Below, one piece after another: positions 1 to 59,523 of a DNA stretch of 64,000 nt. The notes beneath the pieces are model-generated. The model worked only from the letters and a program-made list of their open reading frames with translations. It was not told where the DNA came from and did not search any database. The stretch comes from a virus, in the IMG/VR virus record IMGVR_UViG_3300009158_000046, positions 1 to 64,000 of that record, one strand, 5' to 3'. Position numbers and translations under genes: made by a program. How positions within the stretch are numbered: position 1 is the stretch's first letter; each line of letters begins with the position of its first letter.

Positions 1-352
1 CATTGTGCGCCACCCACATCGCGCCATCCTTGCGGGCGTCGAGCAGCCACCTCAGGTCGCTGGGCTTGAGGGCGTTCTGCCAGTCGGCGTGACCGAAGTT
101 CAGGTAGACGCCTTTGTGAGGCATGTTCTCGGTGTAGAAGCTGGCCCCACACAGGGTCGTGCGGCGGAAATCGAAAATCAGCTTTGAGTTGGACGGCTTC
201 GACCCGTCCTCCCGGTACTTGCAGCGCCGGTTCAGACCCTCGTGCCGGTCAGCGTCGTGGGTCTCAACGTCAAACCCGATGATGTCGGCAGCGGCGATCT
301 AATCGCGCAGGATCGGGCCTTGCTCGGCCCAGTTGCGTTGGTCGATCAGCAT
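1..352 (-). CDS. DNA polymerase, family A, N-terminal part (partial, with in-frame amber codon)
   Basis: The start of a replicative family A (Pol I-like) DNA polymerase; the rest lies beyond the left edge. The ATG at 350-352 has a GAGG ribosome binding site and follows the exonuclease stop by 7 nt. The frame reads MLIDQRNWAEQGPILRD, then TAG (299-301), then continues in the same frame with IIGFDVETHD, the DEDD exonuclease motif I, and a stretch (KLIFDFRRTT, then a conserved HAD) seen in phage polymerases of this type. No alternative start lies between the TAG and motif I. TAG ends other genes here, so the codon is either a real nonsense mutation, a readthrough site or a sequence error. Confidence 0.75.
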
Positions 353-359
353 GTGGACC

Positions 360-1106
360 TCAGTGCAGGAATTGGGAAAGAAGCTCGTCGGCCGCGTAGG
401 GGTTCAAAACCCCGACGACAGTCCCGGCTGAGATCTGAGCGTCGGGCACGTCGTAGAACCCGACGATCTGGTAGAAGGTCCGAACCAGAGCGGTGTTGGC
501 CGGTTCGGAGAGCCAACTCAGGCAGGCGGTCGACATCTCCGGTGGACTACCGTGACCGAAGGCCACGAAGTCCTCCAACCGCCGCTTGTCCACGGCATCG
601 AAAGACTTGGGACCAAATCCCTTGATGCCGGGAATGTTGTCTGAGGGGTCACCGACCGTCGCCTTGTAGAGACGGGTCCAACGCGGATCGCCCTTCATCT
701 CGAACGAGACGGTGACGTTCCGATTGACCAGGAGCTGTCCAAGGTCGCGATCGATGGTCTCGATCCGGATCGGCATCGTCGGGTAGCGCTTCACCAACGT
801 GGCGATGATGTCGTCGGCTTCGTAGTTCGGCACTTCGATCTGCAGCGCAGGGGTGTGCTTCAACCCGTCACGAATGAGCTGCACCATCGGAAAGAAATCC
901 TCCGATGGCTTGGATCGGCCCATCTTGTATTCGGGGTAGAGTTTGCGCCTCAGCGTGCGACAGGTTGGGTGATCGAAAGCCCAGACCACTGTCTTGGGTG
1001 GCCGGATCGCCAACATGTCGTTGATGATCCGGCGAGGTGCCCGCTGGCCGAAGTCCTTCTCGAAGGCCCGGCGGATGTAGGCAAGACCGTCGATGAGGGT
1101 GAGCAT
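360..1106 (-). CDS. 5'-3' exonuclease (flap endonuclease family)
   Basis: A 248-residue phage 5'-3' exonuclease of the kind that removes RNA primers and flaps. It shows an early metal site (LTLIDGLAYIRRAF), AFDHPTCRTLRRKLYPEYK in the arch region, the acidic motif PNYEADDIIATL, DRDLGQLL, and the helix-hairpin-helix clamp GDPSDNIPGIKGFGPKSF near residue 140. Length fits the stand-alone phage enzymes. GGAGG sits upstream of the ATG. It abuts the polymerase gene, so the two halves of a bacterial Pol I are supplied by neighbouring genes, as in T7-type replication modules. Confidence 0.88.
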   Translation of the reverse strand: MLTLIDGLAYIRRAFEKDFGQRAPRRIINDMLAIRPPKTVVWAFDHPTCRTLRRKLYPEYKMGRSKPSEDFFPMVQLIRDGLKHTPALQIEVPNYEADDIIATLVKRYPTMPIRIETIDRDLGQLLVNRNVTVSFEMKGDPRWTRLYKATVGDPSDNIPGIKGFGPKSFDAVDKRRLEDFVAFGHGSPPEMSTACLSWLSEPANTALVRTFYQIVGFYDVPDAQISAGTVVGVLNPYAADELLSQFLH

Positions 1107-6984: not shown

Positions 6985-8046
6985 CTACAACTTACGCGAC
7001 TGGGGGAGAAGTGAGTGGGGACTGTGTTTCCCCAACAACTCCCTGAGAGTTTGCACGGATCCGGCGGCGTACAGCTCGTGGGCCTCGACCGTGGTGTGAC
7101 CCATGATCGACATCCGGTCCTCTCGGGACATCCCGAGCTGCCGGACCCACGACGCAAACGTATGACGCAGATCGTGAATTCTCGCTTTCGGCAACCCGGC
7201 TCTCTTCCGCAATACGGTCCAGCCTCGATAGATGGATACGTACCTTGTCCGTGTGCCGGGGTTGGTGAAGACGTACTCTGATAGTGGGTCACGGGCAATA
7301 CCTGCCAGTGTGTTCAGACTGTGTGTGGTGAGTGGGATCAGGCGGTCTCTTTTTGCCTTGTCCCGCTCCCGTGACAGCCTGATCGTACCCTTCTCCAAAT
7401 CGACCTCCGACCACATCAGGCCGAGGGCCTCTTCATGACGCATTCCGGTCTCCAAGATCAGCCGGATGTAGGCTGACCAGAAGCGACGGCCTTGCGCTGC
7501 GTCCAGCAGTCTCTGAACCTCATGAGGCTGTAGGAACCGGGCGTGATCCGAAGCTTTTCCTAGGCGCTTCTTGCTCACGAGCCGAACCGGGTTGTGGGTC
7601 GGGGCTCCCGGAAGTTCGTTCTCGACGGCAAATTCCAGCACGGCTGACAGGGCTGTCAGTTCATGGCGCACCTGGATGTCTGACGTCTGTGCCCTTCGGT
7701 CCTTCATATAGGTGCGGACCAGCTCCGGCGTGACAGCACTCAGCGGAATGTTGCCGAGGGTGTTCACGACGATCGCCATTTTGCGGGCGTACAATTTGGC
7801 CGTGCTGTCCTTGATGGTCAGCGACGGGTCTTGGAAGTAGTCATGGAGAGCCTGAATGAGGGTAAGGCTGTCGCGTCTGGTGGCTTCTCTTTCGAGTTCC
7901 TCTCGTCTGTGGTCTGCAACTTCGCGAGCGCGCTTGCGAAATGCTGGACTGGCGGGCACTCGTGTCGAGAAGCGATGAGTTTCTCCACCGACATCGAGTT
8001 CTGCATACCAGTACGGGCTTTCCGACCTTGTGAAGAGTTTGACCAT
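6985..8046 (-). CDS. int: Tyrosine site-specific recombinase (phage integrase)
   Basis: A 353-residue integrase. The N-terminal arm-binding part is followed by a SAM-like core-binding domain (about 60-155) and the catalytic domain. Catalytic residues are visible: Arg203 in ETGMRHEEALGL, Lys near 230, His291 and Arg294 in HDLRHTFASW, His317 in MGHTT and the Tyr326 nucleophile in ELYAAG. Length is typical. AGAAGG precedes the ATG. Together with the adjacent tRNA-like segment this argues for a temperate element integrating at a tRNA-Pro gene. Confidence 0.93.
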   Translation of the reverse strand: MVKLFTRSESPYWYAELDVGGETHRFSTRVPASPAFRKRAREVADHRREELEREATRRDSLTLIQALHDYFQDPSLTIKDSTAKLYARKMAIVVNTLGNIPLSAVTPELVRTYMKDRRAQTSDIQVRHELTALSAVLEFAVENELPGAPTHNPVRLVSKKRLGKASDHARFLQPHEVQRLLDAAQGRRFWSAYIRLILETGMRHEEALGLMWSEVDLEKGTIRLSRERDKAKRDRLIPLTTHSLNTLAGIARDPLSEYVFTNPGTRTRYVSIYRGWTVLRKRAGLPKARIHDLRHTFASWVRQLGMSREDRMSIMGHTTVEAHELYAAGSVQTLRELLGKHSPHSLLPQSRKL

Positions 8047-26941: not shown

Positions 26942-29395
26942 CTACGCCACCTTCTTGACCGCAAGTGTGATCGACGTGAACCCGACTATCTCTCCGGTCT
27001 CGCCCACGACCTTCTCGCGAATTCCCTCCTGGGAACCCCTCCACCGAAAGCGTTCGGTGAATTCGCGCAAGTTCACAGGCGACACAAAGGCCCGATTTCT
27101 GCAGAAGTGCCGGTAATCGGAATAGAGGGTGTCGACCAAAGTGAAGGTATTCGTACCGACCGCTGCCCCCACCAACAGGTGTCCCTCTTCGAGGCAGCGG
27201 TCGAAGTAAAAACGGACTGAGTCCGCGCTCCGGGCCATCTCGTTGACGGCCCTCTGAGAGGACGGGGGCATCACGTAGCCCTTCATCGCCCTCAACCCGC
27301 GAATGCCCTGAACTGCCCAGGCGATGATGGCCGGGGCCTCAAGTTCGACAATCAGTTCGGCATAGCGGGGGATGCGAACCCCCTCCTCGATCTTCTTGTG
27401 GAACTCGAAGATGACCCACCGCCGGTCATACCCCCCGTCAGGACTGTCGACCTTGGGGAGCTTGTTGGTCCCGAACCAGTGAGCGCACTTCGGCTCAAGG
27501 GTGAACTTGTCCTTGCCCTTGAACTCGACCCCGATCGGGGCACCCTCGACGACCTGCTTGAACAATGCGCCGTCGATGCGCTTGGTGTCCTTCATCTCGG
27601 CAACGTGGTTCATGAGCTTTCCGGCCATGGCGACCAGCTCGAACCTCTCGCCAAAGACCTCCGGCCTAACCTCGCAACACGTCCCCGGTGGCATCAGGCC
27701 CCGAACAACGTCCATGATGGTCGACTTTCCGGATCCGGGCTCGCCATAGAACAGGAAGGCGCGGTGGTAGGTCGCCGCGACCCCGAACAGCGTGGCAGCC
27801 ATGGCTTGCTGGAGACATTCGACCCGCTGCTCATAGTCGGACTCCTGGCCCCAATATGACTGCAGCATCTCAAGCCACTTCACGCAGTGGCCATTTTCTT
27901 CCGGGTTGTAGATGTACGGGTGGACGTAGACGCACCCAAAGTTCTTGTCGTGAGGAAGAAGCTCAAGGTCCTGGGTCAAATACCCATTGGCAAAGTTGAT
28001 GCCGGGCACCTTGGTCAGGCAAAGAGCCTTCTCACACTTGCCCTGGAGCACCTTGACGATGCCCACATGGTCGGACTTGCGCTTGGCCGCTGGCAACCGG
28101 CCGTAGTTCTCGGAAACGAAGTTCTCAAGCCACTCTCTCCCGACCTTCTGCCAGTGGGTGCCGTGCCACTCCCAGAAGTTCCCGATGTCGAACCGGAACT
28201 CGCCACGCTGTTCCAGGTCCTCAAGAGCCATGGCGGCAATTTCTTCGTGACTGTTCCCCTCCCGGTCACCGCCTTGCAGGCTTTTCAGCCTCTTGCGGAC
28301 GTCAGAGAGAGTGACACGCCGACCAGACCCCTCCACCAGCAGCCGAAGGAGCCTTGTCTGCTCCATCTCGACCATGTCGTCGTTCATGGCGATGCGGGCC
28401 AGAGCTGTCTCAAGAGCCCGCATCACGATGGGGGAGTTGTTGTCGACGGCGATTTCACGCAGAAATTCGGCCTCGATCTCGTTCGGCGGCAGCTTGCGGT
28501 GCTGTCTGCCGATCTCGTCGAGACCAAGATCCTTCTTCAACTCTTCGGAAAGACCCTCGTCCCACCCATCAGGAAGGGCCTTGTTCTTCGCCAAAACGTC
28601 CCGGCGAAGCATTTCGGCGAGCTTTTCGACCGCTTTGTGGGTCGTCACGTCGTCGCCAGCGACCTTTTCGGTGCGCTCTTCGACCCAGGTGACCAGATGC
28701 CCCATGGCCTCGAAGAAGGTGCAGCTCCCGCGCAGAATTTCCCACGCTGCCGTGCCCGCAAGGCGAACGAGCATGTTGTCGCGACCGCCAGACGCCACAT
28801 AGCGCAGAGCGGACGCCTTCTGGGTGACGGCAGACGTCCTGACACCGACGTCAGCCAGCGTCTCCCGCAGCAAACTTTCCCATCCGCGTGGCAGGACAGG
28901 GATCCCTCCCCTCCTGACCCACGCCTCCAGGTCGCACGACGACCGGTACGCCGCCCCGGTGTCGGGATGGATCGATGGTGGAATGACGAACTGCCGCCCG
29001 GAGGACAGAAAGTCCATGATCTGGTTGCCGTCAGCGTCCTTCAGCGTGAAAGACAACTCTCCCGAATAGGCAAAGACCAGCAGCTTGCCCTTGCGGCCCC
29101 ACCTCTCGTAGCCCGAGACCGGCAGGATGCGCTCGATAGCGCCAATGACACGGGGATCATCCGTGTCAATGTCGACACCCACCAACCCGGACTGGCGACC
29201 GCATGCCACCCCGACGTTGTTGCGGCTGTATTGTGACAGCCACGCAGCTCTGGTGTCCTCGTCTGGAAGCTCATTCGCCCATGTCGTCCACGCGCTGACG
29301 ACAGGGCGCTTGCCGATCAGTGGGAGAACCGACACTCCGGCATCCCACAATCCCGGCGCAACTGCCCCGAAAATATCGCCCATTCCGTCCCCCAT
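26942..29395 (-). CDS. Prim-pol / SF3 (D5-like) helicase-primase
   Basis: An 817-residue fusion. The N-terminal archaeo-eukaryotic-type prim-pol domain has VGVDIDTDD (Asp75, Asp77), a GKLLVFAY strand and FVIPPSIHPDTG with the conserved His. A D5_N-like middle (about 420-520) leads to the SF3 helicase with Walker A YGEPGSGKS near residue 548 and the sensor-like FGTNKLPKVDSPDGGYDRRW near 645. It should prime and unwind phage DNA. ATG overlaps the upstream stop (TAATG), with CGGAG before it. Confidence 0.9.
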   Translation of the reverse strand: MGDGMGDIFGAVAPGLWDAGVSVLPLIGKRPVVSAWTTWANELPDEDTRAAWLSQYSRNNVGVACGRQSGLVGVDIDTDDPRVIGAIERILPVSGYERWGRKGKLLVFAYSGELSFTLKDADGNQIMDFLSSGRQFVIPPSIHPDTGAAYRSSCDLEAWVRRGGIPVLPRGWESLLRETLADVGVRTSAVTQKASALRYVASGGRDNMLVRLAGTAAWEILRGSCTFFEAMGHLVTWVEERTEKVAGDDVTTHKAVEKLAEMLRRDVLAKNKALPDGWDEGLSEELKKDLGLDEIGRQHRKLPPNEIEAEFLREIAVDNNSPIVMRALETALARIAMNDDMVEMEQTRLLRLLVEGSGRRVTLSDVRKRLKSLQGGDREGNSHEEIAAMALEDLEQRGEFRFDIGNFWEWHGTHWQKVGREWLENFVSENYGRLPAAKRKSDHVGIVKVLQGKCEKALCLTKVPGINFANGYLTQDLELLPHDKNFGCVYVHPYIYNPEENGHCVKWLEMLQSYWGQESDYEQRVECLQQAMAATLFGVAATYHRAFLFYGEPGSGKSTIMDVVRGLMPPGTCCEVRPEVFGERFELVAMAGKLMNHVAEMKDTKRIDGALFKQVVEGAPIGVEFKGKDKFTLEPKCAHWFGTNKLPKVDSPDGGYDRRWVIFEFHKKIEEGVRIPRYAELIVELEAPAIIAWAVQGIRGLRAMKGYVMPPSSQRAVNEMARSADSVRFYFDRCLEEGHLLVGAAVGTNTFTLVDTLYSDYRHFCRNRAFVSPVNLREFTERFRWRGSQEGIREKVVGETGEIVGFTSITLAVKKVA

Positions 29396-39038: not shown

Positions 39039-39041
39039 GCC

Positions 39042-39572
39042 GTGTTCACGCTTCAGCGGACCAGCAAGCGGTTTTCCGATTGGCTCAAGACTCAGGACGG
39101 TCGCGAGTTTCGAGGCACCATTCAGCCGCTCAAAGAGGGCAGCGTATCGGCATCGACCTTTGCCGAGGGGCGCTACATGCTCCACGTCGCCGTCAACGAG
39201 CCGGTCACCGCCGGTACGGTCATCTTTGATCGCTGGAACAGGCCGTTCCTGGTCGGCAGCCATGACATTCGCAGGGACGCCCGGTCGCACAAGCTGTTCG
39301 TGATGACCGACTACGTCTCGTGGACACGCTCCGTTCCGCAGACCGACCTCGTCACCGGCTTGAAGAAGAGCGAGCAGGAAGTTGAACTGGGTCCGATCTG
39401 GTGCGCGATCGAAATCTTCGGCCGCGAGGAGGTTGATCGCGCTGTCCACGTCGGCTTTGACCGATCCAAGGTTCTGACCGGTTCCCCGATCTTGCTCAAT
39501 GACAAGATCGACGGTCGCATGGTGCGTCGTCTCTTCAACGTGTTCGGGGTGTGGAGTGGCGAAATCCAGTAG
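39042..39572 (+). CDS. Putative head closure protein
   Basis: A 176-residue beta-rich protein (YMLHVAVNEPVTAGTVIFDR), with GTG start. Position after the adaptor suggests a stopper/head-closure role; assignment rests on gene order. Confidence 0.55.
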   Translation: MFTLQRTSKRFSDWLKTQDGREFRGTIQPLKEGSVSASTFAEGRYMLHVAVNEPVTAGTVIFDRWNRPFLVGSHDIRRDARSHKLFVMTDYVSWTRSVPQTDLVTGLKKSEQEVELGPIWCAIEIFGREEVDRAVHVGFDRSKVLTGSPILLNDKIDGRMVRRLFNVFGVWSGEIQ

Positions 39573-48461: not shown

Positions 48462-48871
48462 TGCCGAATTTTGATTTTCCCTACCACAAGGTCACGGATG
48501 AATACCCGGAGAGCAGCATCATTCTGCGCTTCGGTCGTGGCTACCAGTTTGCATCGAAGCCGCGTGGGCCTGACCAGCTCATTTTCCATCTCGAATTCCC
48601 GGTGATGTACTGGTACTTCAACGGCACAACAATAGATCGCACTGTCAAACCTCAATTCAACTTTGCATTCTTGCAGGACTTTTATGAGTCAGTGAGGATG
48701 TACGACACGTTCACCTACACCCACCCATCCCGTGGGGTGCAGACCGTGCGGTTCCAGAAACCACTTCCGCCGGTCAAAGGGATCAGCAACGCGGTGATCT
48801 ACGAGCCAACGATCTCCCGCACCCGGCACGCCATTGACGCCTTCAACATCGATCTGATCCAGCAGCCATGA
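48461..48871 (+). CDS. Minor tail protein (M-like)
   Basis: A 136-residue protein in the position of lambda M, starting at an ATG overlapping the tape measure stop (TGATG). Aromatic-rich, with RFGRGYQFASKPRGPDQL and a beta-rich body. Assignment by order and size. Confidence 0.68.
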   Translation: MPNFDFPYHKVTDEYPESSIILRFGRGYQFASKPRGPDQLIFHLEFPVMYWYFNGTTIDRTVKPQFNFAFLQDFYESVRMYDTFTYTHPSRGVQTVRFQKPLPPVKGISNAVIYEPTISRTRHAIDAFNIDLIQQP

Positions 48872-49359
48872 CAGCTCCCAACGCACAGCTTGTTGAAGCC
48901 CAGAAGCTCACCTCAGACGCTCTTGTCGACCTGTTCGAGGTGTTCCTGGTGGGCGCTCCGAATGGGACCTACGTGCGGTTCACGAACGGCAAGAGCGTGA
49001 CGTGGCAGAGCAAGACCTACGAGGCGCTGGGTTGCAAGTTCTCGACCGTCAGCCGCACTGCGGAGCCAGAGCGCAGCCGCCCGACACTCACCGTGATCAA
49101 CCCCTTGGGCATCTTCAACAGCTATGCCTTCAAGGGGTATTTCGAGCAGGCGACGGTGATCCGAAAGCGCGTGCTGTTGCAGCACATCACCAGCAACACA
49201 GCTTTGAGTGACGACACCTATTTCTACATTTCCAAAGTCAAGGAAATGATCGCCGACCAGTCGGTCTCGTTCGAGCTTAGAGCCCTCAGCGACGGTCCGG
49301 ACCTGATGATCCCGGCTCGTGTTTTCATTCCGCCAGACTTTCCGTTTGTCACTCTCTAG
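48868..49359 (+). CDS. Minor tail protein (L-like)
   Basis: A 163-residue protein. The pattern LFEVFLVGAPNGTYVRFTNG followed by WQSKTYEALGCKF matches phage minor tail proteins of the DUF1833/L-like class that sit in the tail tip. The start overlaps the previous stop. Confidence 0.72.
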   Translation: MTAPNAQLVEAQKLTSDALVDLFEVFLVGAPNGTYVRFTNGKSVTWQSKTYEALGCKFSTVSRTAEPERSRPTLTVINPLGIFNSYAFKGYFEQATVIRKRVLLQHITSNTALSDDTYFYISKVKEMIADQSVSFELRALSDGPDLMIPARVFIPPDFPFVTL

Positions 49360-50196: not shown

Positions 50197-50692
50197 GGTT
50201 GAGGCTGACAACGTCGGAGAGGCTCTCCGCGTCGTCACCACACAGCTCCCCGGCTTCAAGCCCAACGCCATCGAGGGCTACAAACGCATCCAGGTTGCCG
50301 GTTGCCGCACCGTCGAGGACTTGTTCTCCGAGACGGACATGGTGGACATCCACGTCTTCCCGCAGCTCAACGGCGGCAAGAGCGGCGGCTTTATCCAGAT
50401 CCTGCTTGGTGTCGTCCTGATCGCCGCCGCTTTCGCCATCGGCGCTGCTGGCTTCCTGGGTGGGCTGCTGCTCAAGGTCGGGGCGATGATGCTGCTGGGC
50501 GGCATCCTACAGCTCATCTCTGCACCGAAGCGGGACAAGGACGACAAGCAGCAGCAGAAGAGCCACTACCTCGGACCGCCGCAGAACACGGTCGAAATCG
50601 GAACCCGCATTCCGATCCTCTACGGCCGGAGGAAGGTCGGTGGCCACTACCTGTCCTTCAACGTGTCGGCTGTTGAGGGGAGCGTCGGCTAA
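50138..50692 (+). CDS. Tail tip assembly protein (I-like)
   Basis: A 184-residue protein with lambda I features: N-terminal ubiquitin-like RIHLHGSLKK, a hydrophobic Gly-rich segment (VVLIAAAFAIGAAGFLGGLL), and C-terminal GTRIPILYGRRKVGG. It overlaps the JAB gene by 59 nt and J by one base. Assists assembly of the J tip. Confidence 0.82.
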   Translation: MLRRIHLHGSLKKIHPEVIEVEADNVGEALRVVTTQLPGFKPNAIEGYKRIQVAGCRTVEDLFSETDMVDIHVFPQLNGGKSGGFIQILLGVVLIAAAFAIGAAGFLGGLLLKVGAMMLLGGILQLISAPKRDKDDKQQQKSHYLGPPQNTVEIGTRIPILYGRRKVGGHYLSFNVSAVEGSVG

Positions 50693-53600
50693 TGGGTCTC
50701 TTCGGCAGCTCCACCAAGCAGCAGCACACCCAGCCGGATACGCTGTTTTCCGACGACATCATGGAGGTCGTGCTGGCGGTCTCGGAGGGGCCGATCGTCG
50801 GTCTCGACACGCCAAGGGACTTCTTCATCAACGACACGCCGTTGGTGAATTCGAGCTACACGCCGAACATCGGCAATTTCGATCTGCGAATTCACAAGGG
50901 CAACAACCCCGGCGAGGTTTTCAAGACGAACCTCGGCGGCGCTGGATCCACGGTCAACCTGAACGTCAACCTGGAGACCAACCTTCCTGTCGTCGGTAGC
51001 GGAACCAAAAGGAACATCGATTTTCTGGAAGTCCGCATCGTCATTCAGCGGCTCTACGCAACCAACTCGCGTGGCGAGTGGCCGTGGTGGGCTGACTTCA
51101 AGGTTGAAGTCAAACCGCACTCCTCTGGGACGTGGGCGGCGGGAATTGACTTTTCGACCCCTCCCCCGGCGGTCACCACGACGACCAACTACGTTCAATA
51201 CACAGGCCAGAACCAGAACCCCGGAGAAGACTACAACGCCTATTATCGGCTGACGAAGATCGACTCGGCTGCCCCATCAGCGCCGACCGACTTCTCGTTG
51301 ATTTGGTTCAACAGCGCATCCAACTACACACCCAAGATCTGGAACGGGACGGCATGGGTCGCCCCTCCGGGCCTCGTGTACACCTACGTGGCCCTTCCAG
51401 ATTACAGCTATTACACATGGAACGACGGCAATTACGTTCCCAATGGCAGTGGGGGCTATAACTTCGCCGCCACGGGTTCAACCGTCAAAGCCATCATCGG
51501 CTGGAATGGCGCTCCTCCGGTCTTCGGAAACCCCCAGGATCTGTGGGTCACTCCGTCGAATGTCTTGGATCAGACGTCCCCCACTGTCTATTCGTGGAAC
51601 GGCTCGACCTGGGTCGACTACATGGATTGGGCAGAGATCCCATCCGCAAGCCCAGGCACGTTCTCGGTCTACGGAAAGACAACCTCAAACTATGTAAAAG
51701 AGTATCGGATCCCAGTTCCTCGGATCAACGATACCTTTGATGTACGAGTCACGAAGCTCAGCGCTCCCAACACGGGAAGCGAGTTTTCGGACATCATGTT
51801 TGAGAGCTTTCAGGAAGTCACCACTGATCCCCTGCAGTTTAACGATATTGCCATTGCTCATCTGACCGTTAGGGCTTCTGAGCAGTTCAGCTCCATTCCG
51901 ACCTTCACGGGTATCTACAAGGGCCGCATGGTGCGGGTCCCTTCCAACTACAATCCTGTCACCAAGGTCTATACCGGCCTATGGGACGGCGTGACGTTCA
52001 ACATCGCCTGGACCGACAACCCGGCCTGGATTGTCTACGACCTCGTCACGAACACCCGCTACGGCATGGCGGCGTATTACACGGTCAACCTTGACCGGAT
52101 GTCGATCTATGAGTTCGGCAAGCACTGCGACCTTCACGGCTTCACCTACAATGAGCTGATCCAGGAGCCCCGCAATCTCGTCGAAGCGATCGACTATGTC
52201 TGCGGCATCGCGGGCGGTCGCTTCATCGACCTTGGCAATGGCTACGCGACGATCCTGTTCGACGCTGACGATCAGGCTGCCGTGGCGCTCTTCACGCCGG
52301 AGAACGTCGTCGACGGTGTCTTCACCTACGGCTTCACGGACATCACCAGCCGCAAGAACGACATCACTGTCTCGTTCATCAATCCTGATCTGAACTGGCG
52401 CGAAGATCGCCGTCGCATCTACGACCAAACGGTCATCAACACCTATGGTCGCAACCCCGAAGAGTTCATCGCTGTCGGATGCATCAGCGAGACTGAGGCC
52501 ATCAAGCGTGGTCGCCTACGCCTCATCATGGCCCAGACGGAACGCGCGGTGGTCACCTTCAAGACCAACCGCCTGGGCCTTTACCTGAGGCCTTTCGACG
52601 TCATCCTGATTGCGGACGACGCCAGCGGGTTCGGCATTCATGGCCGAGTGAAGACGGTCAACTCGACGACGAGCCTGACGCTGCGAGACTCCGTCTATTT
52701 CGAGGCGGGGTTTACTTACAAGATTTCATTCCAGGTGCCGGACGGAAACGGCAACAACCAGCTCGTCAAACACAATCTGGTCACCAGCTCGGGGTCGACA
52801 ACCAGTCTCACACTGGCGACCCCTCTGACCGTCACGCTACCGACCAGCGCTGCGTTCTCGATTGAGTGCTCCACAACGACGACAGGGACGCCGAAAGCGT
52901 TCCGTGTGACCTCCATTGAAGAGTCGGACGGTGATGCCGACGTGGTCACCGTTTCGGCCATGGAGGTCAACAGGACCAAGTGGGCCTACGTCGATGGCAC
53001 CATCACAGTCATCAGTGTCGGAGATGGTGGACGCCCGACGCGCTTTGTCGACCCGCCCGCAAACCCGATTGCAGTGGGTCGATCGGTCTCTGCGACCCGC
53101 CAGGAAATTCACATCTCTTGGGATACCAGCCCGAACAGGTTCGTTCGCAGCTACAACCTCTATTGGTCGTTCAACACCGGACAGACCGAACTTTTCGGAA
53201 CAAGCCGGACGCCAGCCTACGTCATCGAGGACGCAAAGGAAGGCTTCTACAGCTTTGCCTTGACGGCTGTTTCGATCGACGGTGTGGAGTCCCCTCCTGT
53301 TTATTTTGAGCACCGCGTGCTGGGGATTTCCGGGACGAGCCGAGCTGTCGCTCCTCCCTCTTTCATCCAGCTCACGAACGGCAGCAGCGCCACCGAATTC
53401 AGAGGGCGCGAGCCCTCAATCTCGTGGGGCAACAGCGGAGATCCGTTCTTTCTGAATTTCAACGTCAGGGTCTTGCACCCGTCGACGTCGGTGACGTTGC
53501 GCGAGTTCAACACGCGCGGCAACACCTACACCTACCCCTATCTGGACAACCAGACTGACTTTGGAGGAACGGCTTCAAGGTCGATGATCTTTGAGGTTCG

Positions 53601-56600
53601 AGCGCTCGACTCGACAGGCATGTATTCCATGCCAGTTCGGCTGACCGCGTCGAACCCTTCTCCCGGCCTCGTATCGCCGTCCATTGTCTCCAACACCAAT
53701 GGCATCACGATTTCGTTCAGCGCACCGGCTGATGCCGATGTCTTGGGATCGGTGATTTGGTGCTCTACCACAAACGGTTTCAATCCTCTCACCACTACCC
53801 CTGATTACGAAGGCCCAAACACCTCGGTCTTTTTGGATAAGGCTGCTGGAACCTACTACATCCGTGTCGGATGCTATGACGCATTCGGCCGGACAGGCAT
53901 GAACATCACCTCTCAAGTGACAATCGGAGTGTCCGATGAGGTCGATCTCACGCCTCCAGCCACACCCACTGGCCTGACGCTGACGCCCTCCACGGTTGTG
54001 AAGGCTGATGGCACGCTCGACAGCGTCATCACTCTCACCTGGACGGCAAACAATGAGCCCGATCTTGCTGGCTACCTGATCCAGATCAAGGAAGGGGCAA
54101 GTGGTAATTTCATCGAGTTCGATACCTCTTTGACGAGGTATGAATTCCACAACCTGACGCCTGCAGTTTCCTACACCGCAAAGATCGCGGCATTTGACAA
54201 GGTCAATAACAAATCGTCGTTCACAACCACTGTGTCGGCCACGGCGGGCTTGAACACCACCCCACCGGGGTCGGCCACCGCTTTCAGTGCGACGTCGTCG
54301 CTGCAGACCAACTTCCTCACCTGGACCAATCCGACCAATTCGGATCTGGCATATGTGGAAGTCTGGATGGCCACGACGAACAACCGGGCATCTGCGGCCA
54401 TTGTCGCAAAGGTCAATGGCACGTCGTTCACCCACTCTGGCCTGACGACGAACCAGAGCTATTTCTACTGGCTACGGCCGGTCAACACGTCGGGAACGGT
54501 TGCGGCTGCCTATACCCCAACCTCGGCAACTGGTGGTCTATCGGCAACGCCGGGCACCTTGTCCGGAGTGGAATTCAACACCTCGCTCCGTCCGGTAGAG
54601 TCCGTCAGCGCACTCCCCACAACAGGGAACTTCGATGGTCGCATCGCCTATCTGACCACTGACAAGAAGATCTATCGCTACAACGGCACCACGTGGGTCT
54701 CGACCGTCCCGACGACGGACCTGACAGGCTTTGTCGCCAACACTCAAATCAATGATCGAACCATCAGCGGCACCAAACTTGTCACTGGAGCGATCACCTC
54801 TGCGGAAATGCTGGCTGGTGCGGTCACGGCATCAAAGATTGCCGCATCGACCATTCATAGCCTGCTGCCAAATCCGACATTTGAAGATGGGGTTATGTAC
54901 CCCTGGACCACTGCCTTTGGCACCAACTATGTCGAGGCAGCGACAGACAATGCCTCGGGCCTCTACCGTATGGTTCTGCAAAGAACTTACGACATTGGCG
55001 GTGGACAGCTTGCGGCATATGTCTATGCGAACGCATTTTCAGTAACTGCTGGAGATGTTCTTCAAGCAGAGTTCCGCATCAAAGGAACGTCCAATTCCTC
55101 CGGCGGTGCTTATCTGCGCCTTACTTGGCTTGACAGTGCCAAGTCTAATGTCGGTTACAGCGACGCAGTTTCAAGCGGTGCCTTTACAACCACTTGGACC
55201 GTATATGGTGGGCAGGTAACAGTACCGGCCAACGCTCGATATGCTTCGGTTGAGATCTACCACTACGTCCAGTCCAGCAGCACTTACATGCTTGTGGATC
55301 AGGTGGTTGTTCGACCCACCTTTGGTGCAAATGCCATTGGCAATTCTGCCATTTCAACGGCCAAGATCCAGGACAGCGCCATCACGGCTGCCCAGATTGC
55401 TTCAGCAGCAATCTCCACGGCAAAGATCCAGGACAGCGCCATCACTCCGGCCCAGATTGCGGCTGGAGCCATTACGTCGGTTAAGCTTGTCGACTCGGCA
55501 GTTACAAACGCCAAACTGGCAGATAGCACCGTCAGTACGGCCAAGATCATCGATGCTGCAATCACAAATGCCAAAATTGCAGATAATACAATCAACACCA
55601 AAAAACTTATTATTGCCGATTTTGAAAATCTTGTTGAAAATCCGCATTTTGGAGATGGTGACGTTGGTTGGGTTCGCGGTACTGGCGTCACTATTGTAAA
55701 TGACTCCGCCAATGCTTTTACTGGTAATTGGTTACTCAAAATTGGTATTGGAGCAACAGGCATTGCGGTAAGAAATGAACTTATTTTCCCTGTTGTTTCC
55801 GGCCAGGAATTTTATGTTGAAGCTAGGGCAAAATGTGTCGGTGCGGATGTCGGTATTAATCTTCGTATTCGATTTTTAGCTGCCGACAAATCCTCATTTG
55901 TTGCTGCTTCTGGGGTGGCCTTTTACACAACAGATACGTCTTATATTTTACGGTCTGCCACTATTACAACTCCAGCCGGGGCAATATACGCTTGGGTAGA
56001 TTTTAATCCCATAGGTACTATAACAACTGGACGTTGGGACGTTGGCTATGTTCGCTGTCAAAGGCGCAATGCCAGTGAACTGATAGTTGATGGCGCAATC
56101 ACAGCGTCCAAAATTCAGGCTGCCTCTATCACGGGCGACCGTCTTGTCGCGAACACCATCACTGCTGGTCAGATCGCCACCAACGCCGTCACGGCTGACA
56201 AGATCGCCGCAAACTCGGTGAGTGCCGACAAGATCGCGGCAAACACGATCACCGCTGGTCAGCTTGCTGCCAACGCCGTCACGGCCGACAAGATTGCCGC
56301 AAACTCGATCACTGCCACCAAACTGGTGTTGGTCGACAACACCATTCTCGGGCCTGATCCTGGTTTCTACGATCTGGCTTGGTGGTCTCTTTCTGGAATT
56401 TCCGGCTATAACGCTTATTCCGGCAGTACATCTCCGCAACCTCAGCGATTTTTGGGTGTCACTCGTTTAGGTGACAGCGACTACATCAGTAACACTTTTC
56501 AGATTGAACAGGGAGCTTACTACCGACTTAAACTTCGCATCTGGATTAGCACAGACGCAGCCGGGTGGATTGGACTTGCAGTTCATATTCCGTGGACTGC

Positions 56601-59523
56601 CTGGGCTATTCCCTATCCTTATTCTTTTTTGGCAAGCGTGGACTCAAGCGGCTATCCCCTGATTAATTTGTCGACAACGACAATCACGAAGGGACAGTGG
56701 GTCGAATTTGAGAGTATCTATCAGGCATCTGCCGCCCAAGCGACTTACCTTCAATTCCGGACAAGGCATAACCTTTCGGCTGGAAGCTTCCAATTTAAGT
56801 GGGAAGTGACCCGCGCCGTGTCTGCGGGCTTGGTGGTAGATGGATCTATTATCACCAGCAAGCTGTCAGCCAACGCCGTCACGGCCGACAAAATCGCCGC
56901 TAACACGATCACGGGCGACCGCATTGCGGCCAACACGATCAACGCCGACAGGATTATTGCCAACACGATCACCGCGACACAGATCGCCGCCGCCACCATC
57001 ACGGGCGACCGTCTTGTCGCGAACACGATCACCGCTGGCCAGATCGCCGCGAACACCATCACCGCGACCCAGATCGCCGCAAACACCATCACCGCCAGTC
57101 AGATTGCCGCGAACACCATCACCGCGACCCAGATCGCCGCCGACACCATCACCGCTGGTCAGATTGCAGCAGGCGCAATCACGGCCTCAGAACTTGCAGC
57201 AGGCTCAGTCCTGGCATCAAAGATTGGCGTCGGTATCAGCCAGAATATGGCTCTCAACTCTGACACGGCTGCTGGACTTATCCATTACGAGCTGGGCTGG
57301 CGTTCATGGGCTGGAAGTCCGACCCCACAGTACACTGTAAGCTCGGATCCGTGGCAGCCTTTGGGAATGAAGGCTATTGCTCTGTATGTGCCAGGAACCC
57401 CCAACGGAATTCAAGACATCTACCATAAGCCAAAAACAGTAGGTAATAGCTATCAGCTTTTTCCAGTTGTTGCTGGACAGCGTTACGAGTTTTCTTATTA
57501 CGTTTCAGTTCACCGTTGCGATGCTTATGCGGGACTGCTCTTCTTCGGAGACGATGGATCAACTCAGCTTCTTTACGTTGGTGGCAATGCCGTTCCTTCC
57601 AACGGCGTATCAGGACGGCTTGCAAGCTGGACTAGGGCCAGCGTGTTTGCCACTGCCCCATCCAATGCCGCCTATGTGATGCCGATTATTCGTGCTTCAT
57701 TTTCTGGTACACAATCCGACCCATACATCTTTTTCACTGCTGTTCATTTTGGCGATGCAACTCCAAACCAGACCGAGCTGACGCCTTGGTCACCGGCTGG
57801 TGGCACCATCATCGATGGCACCAGGATTGTCACCGGCACACTCAATGCCGACAAGATCATCGCCGGAACGATCACGGGTGACCGTTTCAATACCGGCACG
57901 TCGCTGCCCGGCACGATCACGGTTGGCTCTACGGGCGTGTCAATTGACACCGTGCAGTCCAGGTCGAGCGACCCGGCGGCGCGCATCAACGCCGTTGGCA
58001 CCACCATCGACCCAGGCAGGATCCTCATCTCGGGCGGAACGACGCTGGCAAGCTGGCGCAATGGCTCCGACGCTACCAAGATTGAAGGTGGTGCGATCTA
58101 CGCCAACACCATCACGGCCAACAAGCTGCGGATTGGCAGCCGCGCAATCAGCACTGTTGCTGTGGAATTTGAAACTGAAAAGTCTACCAACGGTAGTGGC
58201 CGTGTAAAGTGGACCTCTGGCTATGTGTTGTATGAAGCTGATGATGGAACTCAAACCGCAACGTTGATTAGCGCTGGTTATGCTGACTATGCCAACTTCA
58301 ACTCATGGACATACATATACTGGACAAAGGGAGGCTCTTCTTTAGCTGCTACAACTGATTGGGCAACAGCTCAATCTGCAAATAACGTGATATTGGCAAG
58401 CTACACCGCCTATGCCGGACTGGCGGTGAACTACGGCGGAGTGATCATCGACGGAACCCGCATCACTGCCGGGACCATCACCGCCGACCGCATCGCTGCC
58501 AACAGCATCACGGCAGGACAGATCGCTGCTGAGACGATTACCGGCACGCAGCTCGCGCCGCTGACCATCAAAGCGTCCAACCTTCTGGTGACCGGCGAAA
58601 ACAAGGTGCTCGACCCCTTCTTCGATAGCGACGAGTGGGTGATCGACAGCGGCCTCTATTTTGAAAACAACTCCCAGTGGGGCAGCATCGGCACTCGCCG
58701 ATACGCGGTGTGGTGGTCCGGTGCTGGCGGTGGCCCAGGAGGTGCTCGCAAGCACCTTTATTCCCGCAACTACATTCGCGTTTCGCCGGATCAAAAGTAT
58801 CGCATCCGCGCTAAAATGTACAACGGCGGAAGCTGTGGCTTCTACCTTGGAATTAATTTCTACAATTCGGCTGGCGGCTATCTAGGTGGAAATTTCAATA
58901 GTGTATCACCTGGTTTCAGCGGCTATTTCTCATTTGGAAACATTGTCCCTCCAGCCAATACTGCCTACGGTCTGATCTACATCTTCAATGATACCAATAT
59001 GTCCGGCATCATGCTGGCGTCTGACATTTCCTTCGGTCAGATGGTCGGCACGGCATTCATCGAAGATGCGGCAATCAGCAATGCCAAAATCGGCAATCTG
59101 GAAGTCGACAATATCAAACTTGCCAACGGTTCGGTGACCACGGTCGTGGCTGCTGGAACTGCTTCATCTTTAGACGCAGTTGCTACGGTCACGATTACCG
59201 TTCGTGCAAATGCAAAAATACTTCTAATTGCAACTGCTGGAGGCATTTTTGCTGGCTCAACTAATGGTGCAGGATCTGTTACAACAAAATTCTTAGACAT
59301 ATTAGACAGCTCTCTTACAACTCTGTATTCAAGGGTTTCCCAGTATGCACTTCTCAATTCTGTAGGAAACACTGGTGGAGATACTGGTGTTGATATTTAT
59401 TATTACTATCACGCTCCAGTATCTACACAGTACATATATGTAGCATCCACGTCTGGAACCCTCACGTTCAAAGCACGAGGCCAGGGTGTGACAGTCCTTA
59501 CCGCTGTCGAACTGGCAAAGTAG
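50692..59523 (+). CDS. Host-specificity / tail tip protein (J-like), giant mosaic
   Basis: A 2943-residue protein. Residues 1-780 are gpJ-like: VLAVSEGPIVGLDTPRDFFI, tip attachment and hub domains (RKNDITVSFINPDLNWREDR). FNIII-like domains follow (800-1290). From about 1360 the chain is built of 10-residue repeats (ANTITATQIA and variants) alternating with five W-rich jelly-roll-like modules (starting near 1390, 1640, 1875, 2180, 2635). The modules are visibly AT-richer than the repeats. It should recognise the host receptor, with modules probably binding polysaccharide. Confidence 0.88.
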   Translation: MGLFGSSTKQQHTQPDTLFSDDIMEVVLAVSEGPIVGLDTPRDFFINDTPLVNSSYTPNIGNFDLRIHKGNNPGEVFKTNLGGAGSTVNLNVNLETNLPVVGSGTKRNIDFLEVRIVIQRLYATNSRGEWPWWADFKVEVKPHSSGTWAAGIDFSTPPPAVTTTTNYVQYTGQNQNPGEDYNAYYRLTKIDSAAPSAPTDFSLIWFNSASNYTPKIWNGTAWVAPPGLVYTYVALPDYSYYTWNDGNYVPNGSGGYNFAATGSTVKAIIGWNGAPPVFGNPQDLWVTPSNVLDQTSPTVYSWNGSTWVDYMDWAEIPSASPGTFSVYGKTTSNYVKEYRIPVPRINDTFDVRVTKLSAPNTGSEFSDIMFESFQEVTTDPLQFNDIAIAHLTVRASEQFSSIPTFTGIYKGRMVRVPSNYNPVTKVYTGLWDGVTFNIAWTDNPAWIVYDLVTNTRYGMAAYYTVNLDRMSIYEFGKHCDLHGFTYNELIQEPRNLVEAIDYVCGIAGGRFIDLGNGYATILFDADDQAAVALFTPENVVDGVFTYGFTDITSRKNDITVSFINPDLNWREDRRRIYDQTVINTYGRNPEEFIAVGCISETEAIKRGRLRLIMAQTERAVVTFKTNRLGLYLRPFDVILIADDASGFGIHGRVKTVNSTTSLTLRDSVYFEAGFTYKISFQVPDGNGNNQLVKHNLVTSSGSTTSLTLATPLTVTLPTSAAFSIECSTTTTGTPKAFRVTSIEESDGDADVVTVSAMEVNRTKWAYVDGTITVISVGDGGRPTRFVDPPANPIAVGRSVSATRQEIHISWDTSPNRFVRSYNLYWSFNTGQTELFGTSRTPAYVIEDAKEGFYSFALTAVSIDGVESPPVYFEHRVLGISGTSRAVAPPSFIQLTNGSSATEFRGREPSISWGNSGDPFFLNFNVRVLHPSTSVTLREFNTRGNTYTYPYLDNQTDFGGTASRSMIFEVRALDSTGMYSMPVRLTASNPSPGLVSPSIVSNTNGITISFSAPADADVLGSVIWCSTTNGFNPLTTTPDYEGPNTSVFLDKAAGTYYIRVGCYDAFGRTGMNITSQVTIGVSDEVDLTPPATPTGLTLTPSTVVKADGTLDSVITLTWTANNEPDLAGYLIQIKEGASGNFIEFDTSLTRYEFHNLTPAVSYTAKIAAFDKVNNKSSFTTTVSATAGLNTTPPGSATAFSATSSLQTNFLTWTNPTNSDLAYVEVWMATTNNRASAAIVAKVNGTSFTHSGLTTNQSYFYWLRPVNTSGTVAAAYTPTSATGGLSATPGTLSGVEFNTSLRPVESVSALPTTGNFDGRIAYLTTDKKIYRYNGTTWVSTVPTTDLTGFVANTQINDRTISGTKLVTGAITSAEMLAGAVTASKIAASTIHSLLPNPTFEDGVMYPWTTAFGTNYVEAATDNASGLYRMVLQRTYDIGGGQLAAYVYANAFSVTAGDVLQAEFRIKGTSNSSGGAYLRLTWLDSAKSNVGYSDAVSSGAFTTTWTVYGGQVTVPANARYASVEIYHYVQSSSTYMLVDQVVVRPTFGANAIGNSAISTAKIQDSAITAAQIASAAISTAKIQDSAITPAQIAAGAITSVKLVDSAVTNAKLADSTVSTAKIIDAAITNAKIADNTINTKKLIIADFENLVENPHFGDGDVGWVRGTGVTIVNDSANAFTGNWLLKIGIGATGIAVRNELIFPVVSGQEFYVEARAKCVGADVGINLRIRFLAADKSSFVAASGVAFYTTDTSYILRSATITTPAGAIYAWVDFNPIGTITTGRWDVGYVRCQRRNASELIVDGAITASKIQAASITGDRLVANTITAGQIATNAVTADKIAANSVSADKIAANTITAGQLAANAVTADKIAANSITATKLVLVDNTILGPDPGFYDLAWWSLSGISGYNAYSGSTSPQPQRFLGVTRLGDSDYISNTFQIEQGAYYRLKLRIWISTDAAGWIGLAVHIPWTAWAIPYPYSFLASVDSSGYPLINLSTTTITKGQWVEFESIYQASAAQATYLQFRTRHNLSAGSFQFKWEVTRAVSAGLVVDGSIITSKLSANAVTADKIAANTITGDRIAANTINADRIIANTITATQIAAATITGDRLVANTITAGQIAANTITATQIAANTITASQIAANTITATQIAADTITAGQIAAGAITASELAAGSVLASKIGVGISQNMALNSDTAAGLIHYELGWRSWAGSPTPQYTVSSDPWQPLGMKAIALYVPGTPNGIQDIYHKPKTVGNSYQLFPVVAGQRYEFSYYVSVHRCDAYAGLLFFGDDGSTQLLYVGGNAVPSNGVSGRLASWTRASVFATAPSNAAYVMPIIRASFSGTQSDPYIFFTAVHFGDATPNQTELTPWSPAGGTIIDGTRIVTGTLNADKIIAGTITGDRFNTGTSLPGTITVGSTGVSIDTVQSRSSDPAARINAVGTTIDPGRILISGGTTLASWRNGSDATKIEGGAIYANTITANKLRIGSRAISTVAVEFETEKSTNGSGRVKWTSGYVLYEADDGTQTATLISAGYADYANFNSWTYIYWTKGGSSLAATTDWATAQSANNVILASYTAYAGLAVNYGGVIIDGTRITAGTITADRIAANSITAGQIAAETITGTQLAPLTIKASNLLVTGENKVLDPFFDSDEWVIDSGLYFENNSQWGSIGTRRYAVWWSGAGGGPGGARKHLYSRNYIRVSPDQKYRIRAKMYNGGSCGFYLGINFYNSAGGYLGGNFNSVSPGFSGYFSFGNIVPPANTAYGLIYIFNDTNMSGIMLASDISFGQMVGTAFIEDAAISNAKIGNLEVDNIKLANGSVTTVVAAGTASSLDAVATVTITVRANAKILLIATAGGIFAGSTNGAGSVTTKFLDILDSSLTTLYSRVSQYALLNSVGNTGGDTGVDIYYYYHAPVSTQYIYVASTSGTLTFKARGQGVTVLTAVELAK
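55355..55610 (+). repeat. First block of 10-residue repeats in J
   Basis: Units such as AISTAKIQDSAITAAQIASA repeat about nine times at 30-33 bp intervals, with two nearly identical 50-bp direct copies (ACGGCCAAGATCCAGGACAG / ACGGCAAAGATCCAGGACAG). Confidence 0.75.
56858..57232 (+). repeat. 30-bp tandem repeats in J
   Basis: About twelve tandem units of AACACCATCACCGCGACCCA-type sequence encode ANTITATQIA and variants. Adjacent units are nearly identical at DNA level, so recombination could change their number. Confidence 0.85.

Follow-up and report, generated by a model that had tools for sequence, protein, structure and literature searches.

An in-frame amber codon near the start of a DNA polymerase gene raises the question of whether a phage reads TAG as a sense codon, starts the protein at some other codon, or carries an ordinary gene that one base has interrupted. 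We addressed this question for a polymerase at the beginning of the window, i.e., the whole stretch of DNA that was analyzed, which covers bases 1 to 64,000 of a virus record that is 72,977 bases long and derives from an uncultured temperate phage.

Anatomy and identity of the polymerase gene

The DNA polymerase frame with its in-frame amber was confirmed, and every coordinate that the earlier note had assigned to it proved exact. On the minus strand, the polymerase ATG (352-350) lies 7 nt past the TGA (362-360) that ends the upstream 5'-3' exonuclease gene, and a GAGG (361-358) overlapping this stop stands 5 nt ahead of the ATG. The 17 codons from the ATG encode MLIDQRNWAEQGPILRD and are followed by TAG (301-299) as codon 18; directly past it, the same frame reads IAAADIIGFDVET... 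and includes exonuclease motif I. The frame after the TAG (IAAADIIGFDVETHDADRHEG...) continues across an end repeat and terminates naturally with a TGA near position 70,561 of the record, giving 881 codons in all when the TAG is counted as codon 18, and this TAG is the sole stop within the frame. Bases 1 to 123 are repeated exactly at the end of the record (G000 72,855-72,977), indicating a circular genome with a 123-base end repeat. The contig breaks inside the polymerase gene, and the window alone covers just its first 117 codons.

It had also been claimed that no start codon is available between the TAG and motif I, and indeed no ATG, GTG, or TTG occurs there; the frame has ATC at codons 19, 24, and 25 and later CTG or ATT, and the first of the three standard starts is the ATG at codon 77 (124-122), beyond motif I. 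The GC contents at the three codon positions were 0.71, 0.35, and 0.82 before the TAG versus 0.60, 0.41, and 0.82 in the rest of the polymerase. This matching codon-position GC, together with homology to the N termini of related polymerases, implies that the frame before the TAG is not open merely by chance.

Features at and around the polymerase locus (positions in the window)
Feature	Position	Strand	Evidence or remark
First 17 codons of the polymerase (MLIDQRNWAEQGPILRD)	302..352	-	GAGG and ATG; homology; L2 and D4 invariant; predicted strand 2-3 and helix 8-21
In-frame amber TAG, polymerase codon 18	299..301	-	Relatives without a stop here; column variable, Glu commonest
Polymerase frame after the TAG: motif I (FDVET), start of the 3'-5' exonuclease domain	1..298	-	Continues to G000 ~70,561 (L003 6561); PF00476
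Copy of the end repeat	1..123		Identical to G000 72,855-72,977; contig end ~300 bases from the TAG
First standard in-frame start after the TAG: ATG codon 77	122..124	-	Downstream of exonuclease motif I
Intact 5'-3' exonuclease gene	360..1106	-	PF02739, E = 1.3e-24; near the polymerase in relatives too
Tyrosine integrase	6985..8046	-	PF00589, E = 1.7e-22; TAG stop at the residue where the relative ends

The polymerase part downstream of the TAG matched DNA_pol_A (PF00476; E = 1.7e-32), and the polymerase profile matched Klenow (E = 1.5e-37). Polymerase motifs A and C are present as DWSAIEL and HDELV, and so are the acidic exonuclease motifs FDVET, HNAPFE, and YGADD. Judged by these matches and motifs, the protein is a family A DNA polymerase with a predicted 3'-5' exonuclease domain. 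In the deposited sequence, the frame that opens at the proper start is interrupted at codon 18, and the gene as deposited would not yield a full-length enzyme under the standard code. Besides this gene, the phage carries a second replication enzyme, a prim-pol primase/polymerase (PF09250) with a DUF5906 domain (26942-29395). The gene for a separate Rv2179c-like/RNase T-type exonuclease lies close to that of the polymerase (L003 3138-3764), and this enzyme could in principle be a source of exonuclease activity in trans.

Relatives and predicted fold of the N terminus

We compared the polymerase with relatives from 12 phage records, 80 viral contigs, and 9 bacterial-genome loci; the related polymerases came from about 98 loci, with 80 distinct N termini, and the nearest relative was 57% identical. 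Relatives that start translation after the TAG position, which the earlier note had named as evidence against its reading, were not encountered: in a codon-level comparison, those with a covered N terminus begin upstream of it, and a few (e.g., L047, L061, and L070) have a truncated or poorly aligned N terminus. When the N termini were aligned, as that note had advised, the 17 codons were homologous to the N terminus of the relatives. An LVDARN-like pattern runs throughout the polymerase family, the closest relative (L021) reads MLIDARNWDEQ..., and Leu-2 and Asp-4 within the first 17 codons were invariant in an alignment of 52 sequences. The column aligned to the TAG was variable and mostly polar, with Glu as the commonest residue (33 of the 80 distinct N termini).

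The modelled exonuclease domain of L021 had a mean pLDDT of 96 (96 to 98 in the N-terminal strand and helix region) and matched the structures of the Klenow fragment and the phage G20c polymerase. The model comprises a strand at residues 2 to 3, a helix at residues 8 to 21, and the motif I strand at residues 24 to 32, and the codon-18 position falls inside the first helix of the predicted fold. Taking alignment and model together, the polymerase truly begins with the 17 codons ahead of the TAG, which are predicted to form the strand and helix that open the exonuclease fold; a start after the TAG would cut into a conserved element with a well-ordered structure.

At the codon-18 position, none of the approximately 98 loci compared, among them isolate phages and copies in host genomes, has a stop. 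Furthermore, the polymerase genes of the relatives had no in-frame stop elsewhere before their natural end, the frame-shifted Mystique record excepted; apparent stops in L064 and L072 were natural C-terminal gene ends. A frameshift path around the TAG was rejected because the relatives keep the same frame on both sides. Searches with polymerase peptide patterns, and searches of viral contigs and of phage and plasmid DNA with a degenerate 29-base pattern that represented the first codons, found no conspecific or near-identical record. In four relatives (L091, L092, L101, and L102), the polymerase match is divided into two segments that share a frame but cover a greater length, which suggests that these proteins have additional in-frame sequence in their middle part.

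Stop codon usage across the genome

The whole genome was compared with the genomes of four relatives, which gave 44 conserved genes. Only the polymerase was interrupted, the other 43 genes being uninterrupted; other stops inside the alignments were dismissed, as each preceded a true start, coincided with a gene end, or fell in an overlapping or shadow frame. The 44 genes end in TGA (27 genes), TAA (10 genes), or TAG (7 genes), and the proteins of relatives reach their last residue exactly at the TAG in the integrase (matched through 357 of 357 residues) and in the genes at 39039-39572 and 48838-49359. TAG also terminates the prim-pol gene, where the proteins of relatives end within a few residues of it, and a 2943-aa tail gene (50692-59523), which accords with the earlier description of TAG as a normal stop in prim-pol and J. 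A search of the whole record by ARAGORN for tRNA genes, suppressors included, returned none, and no Rfam RNA matched the genome at gathering thresholds. The RNA fold around the TAG was no better than those of shuffled sequences (z, -0.43), and a readthrough-promoting element was not supported.

In short, we saw neither in-frame TAG in several conserved genes, nor a suppressor tRNA of the phage, nor avoidance of TAG as a terminator, and genome-wide amber recoding was rejected. The phage is not amber-recoded, since it has no tRNA genes, its polymerase alone is interrupted, and TAG ends seven other genes. The anatomy described in the earlier note stands, the suppression or recoding that it implied is not supported, and a one-base error or a defective allele, for which it also left room, is the simplest account.

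Explanations for the amber codon

The best explanation, to which we assign a probability of roughly 0.88, is a lone one-base nonsense change, be it a consensus error or a defective copy, with nothing in the genome built to read TAG as sense. We infer that the TAG originated by a single substitution, through which an ordinary full-length family A polymerase gene would have gained a nonsense codon at position 18. About 3.5% of single substitutions in the polymerase gene create a stop. At codon 18 the residue varies and is mostly polar, so that a nonsense change there requires no accompanying adjustment. Because the polymerase is otherwise intact and is uninterrupted in all but two of the approximately 98 relatives, the most likely cause is a one-base error in sequencing or a broken copy, not a novel mode of decoding.

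Overall, we put the odds at about even that the change exists in the deposited consensus only, as a sequencing or assembly error near the contig end. The TAG lies 300 bases from that end, and about 1% of the record is so close to an end; this nearness, the uniqueness of the codon among the relatives, and the fact that the observation was selected as an anomaly all speak in favor of an error. Somewhat less probable is a nonsense allele that was truly present in the molecules sampled, e.g., a defective temperate-phage or prophage copy whose polymerase would be made truncated or not at all. Such an allele is favored by the integrase, the temperate relative JWF, the relatives in bacterial genomes, and the otherwise clean assembly. 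The tyrosine integrase indicates that the phage is temperate, as JWF has been described to be (PMC9959647), and with an integrase and relatives in bacterial genomes, inert copies can persist. Besides, the lack of any other nonsense codon or frameshift in the conserved genes weakens the argument from careless assembly. The closed-circle genome probably reflects a phage that was replicating or excised, which fits awkwardly with a dead polymerase unless a host or helper supplies the enzyme. This division between error and allele, with the remainder placed on functional readthrough or non-standard initiation, is a matter of judgement and was not computed.

Functional readthrough, by a host suppressor tRNA or by inefficient use of UAG as sense, would produce some full-length polymerase with a residue inserted at codon 18. 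Such a host would also extend the seven genes that still end in TAG, the phage itself has no tRNA, and no relative has a stop at polymerase codon 18, all of which makes this reading improbable even though the residues flanking the TAG belong to one conserved domain, the position accepts many residues, and neither side of the TAG departs from normal codon-position GC. For recoded phages in which no suppressor tRNA is detectable, it has been proposed that the host supplies the suppression (PMC7886860), but an internal TAG in 1 of 44 conserved genes contrasts with the dozens of genes affected in recoded phages (41 ORFs in phAss-1; PMC10607447). We consider it very unlikely that the amber is real and fixed in an otherwise standard code, with full-length polymerase arising only via readthrough or suppression and replication hinging on UAG decoding by the host.

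Slightly less probable still is a shortened polymerase made by non-standard initiation, or by termination and reinitiation, at the ATC of codon 19, at those of codons 24 and 25, or at ATG 77. The ATC of codon 19 follows the TAG immediately, and AUC initiation is known in bacteria but rare; no Shine-Dalgarno-like sequence, however, precedes any of the three ATC codons. Relatives with a covered N terminus start upstream, and codons 1 to 17 hold the two residues that do not vary among 52 relatives. With a start at codon 19, the protein would lose its first strand and the greater part of its first helix, which are modelled with a pLDDT of about 98, and a start at ATG 77, which comes after catalytic motif I, would give a product without that motif. 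The least probable reading, a separate leader peptide or upstream ORF of 17 codons that regulates the polymerase, would suit the GAGG and ATG of its own and the stop just ahead of the remaining frame, but it is largely refuted by the alignment, in which its sequence is the polymerase N terminus of the relatives (L021 and the family-wide LVDARN-like motif), and no later start is able to open a separate gene.

If the TAG is an error or marks a defective copy, the matter is one of annotation only: gene callers would drop the N terminus from a core replication gene and wrongly place its start at ATG 77. A real and functional amber would represent an unusual case, confined to one gene, in which the decoding of a stop codon controls replication, but nothing here supports a functional amber beyond the codon itself.

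Comparison with known systems

Amber-recoded (code 15) phages, e.g., phAss-1 and some crAss-like phages, likewise have in-frame TAG inside core phage genes. In those phages, many genes are affected and suppressor tRNAs are usual (PMC10607447 and PMC7886860), whereas here one gene is affected, no tRNA is present, and TAG is still a terminator. In phAss-1, TAG occurs within 41 ORFs and the genome carries three genes for suppressor tRNAs (PMC10607447); among recoded crAss-like phages, suppressor tRNAs are common but not universal, host suppression being proposed for the exceptions (PMC7886860).

The polymerase shows full-length homology to those of Seuss/JWF-type siphoviruses (Caulobacter phage Seuss, Achromobacter phage JWF, and Xylophilus phage Lumi), with which it shares its N-terminal motif; identity to the phage polymerases that were aligned was 39 to 48%. 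A 5'-3' exonuclease gene neighbors the polymerase gene in JWF, Lumi, Seuss, and KB12-38, as it does in this phage, and in several Seuss/JWF-type phages it lies a short distance upstream. Unlike the polymerase studied here, those of Seuss, JWF, and Lumi have no stop at codon 18.

Two deposited polymerase genes, those of Acinetobacter phage Mystique (L007 2468-5061) and Achromobacter phage 2-1 (L009 2352-5062), likewise look broken while their relatives are intact. Both are split by frameshifts in records of cultured phages, which are probably sequencing errors in those records, whereas the present case is a substitution-type stop in a record from a virus collection. These frame-broken genes show that broken deposits do occur in this group.
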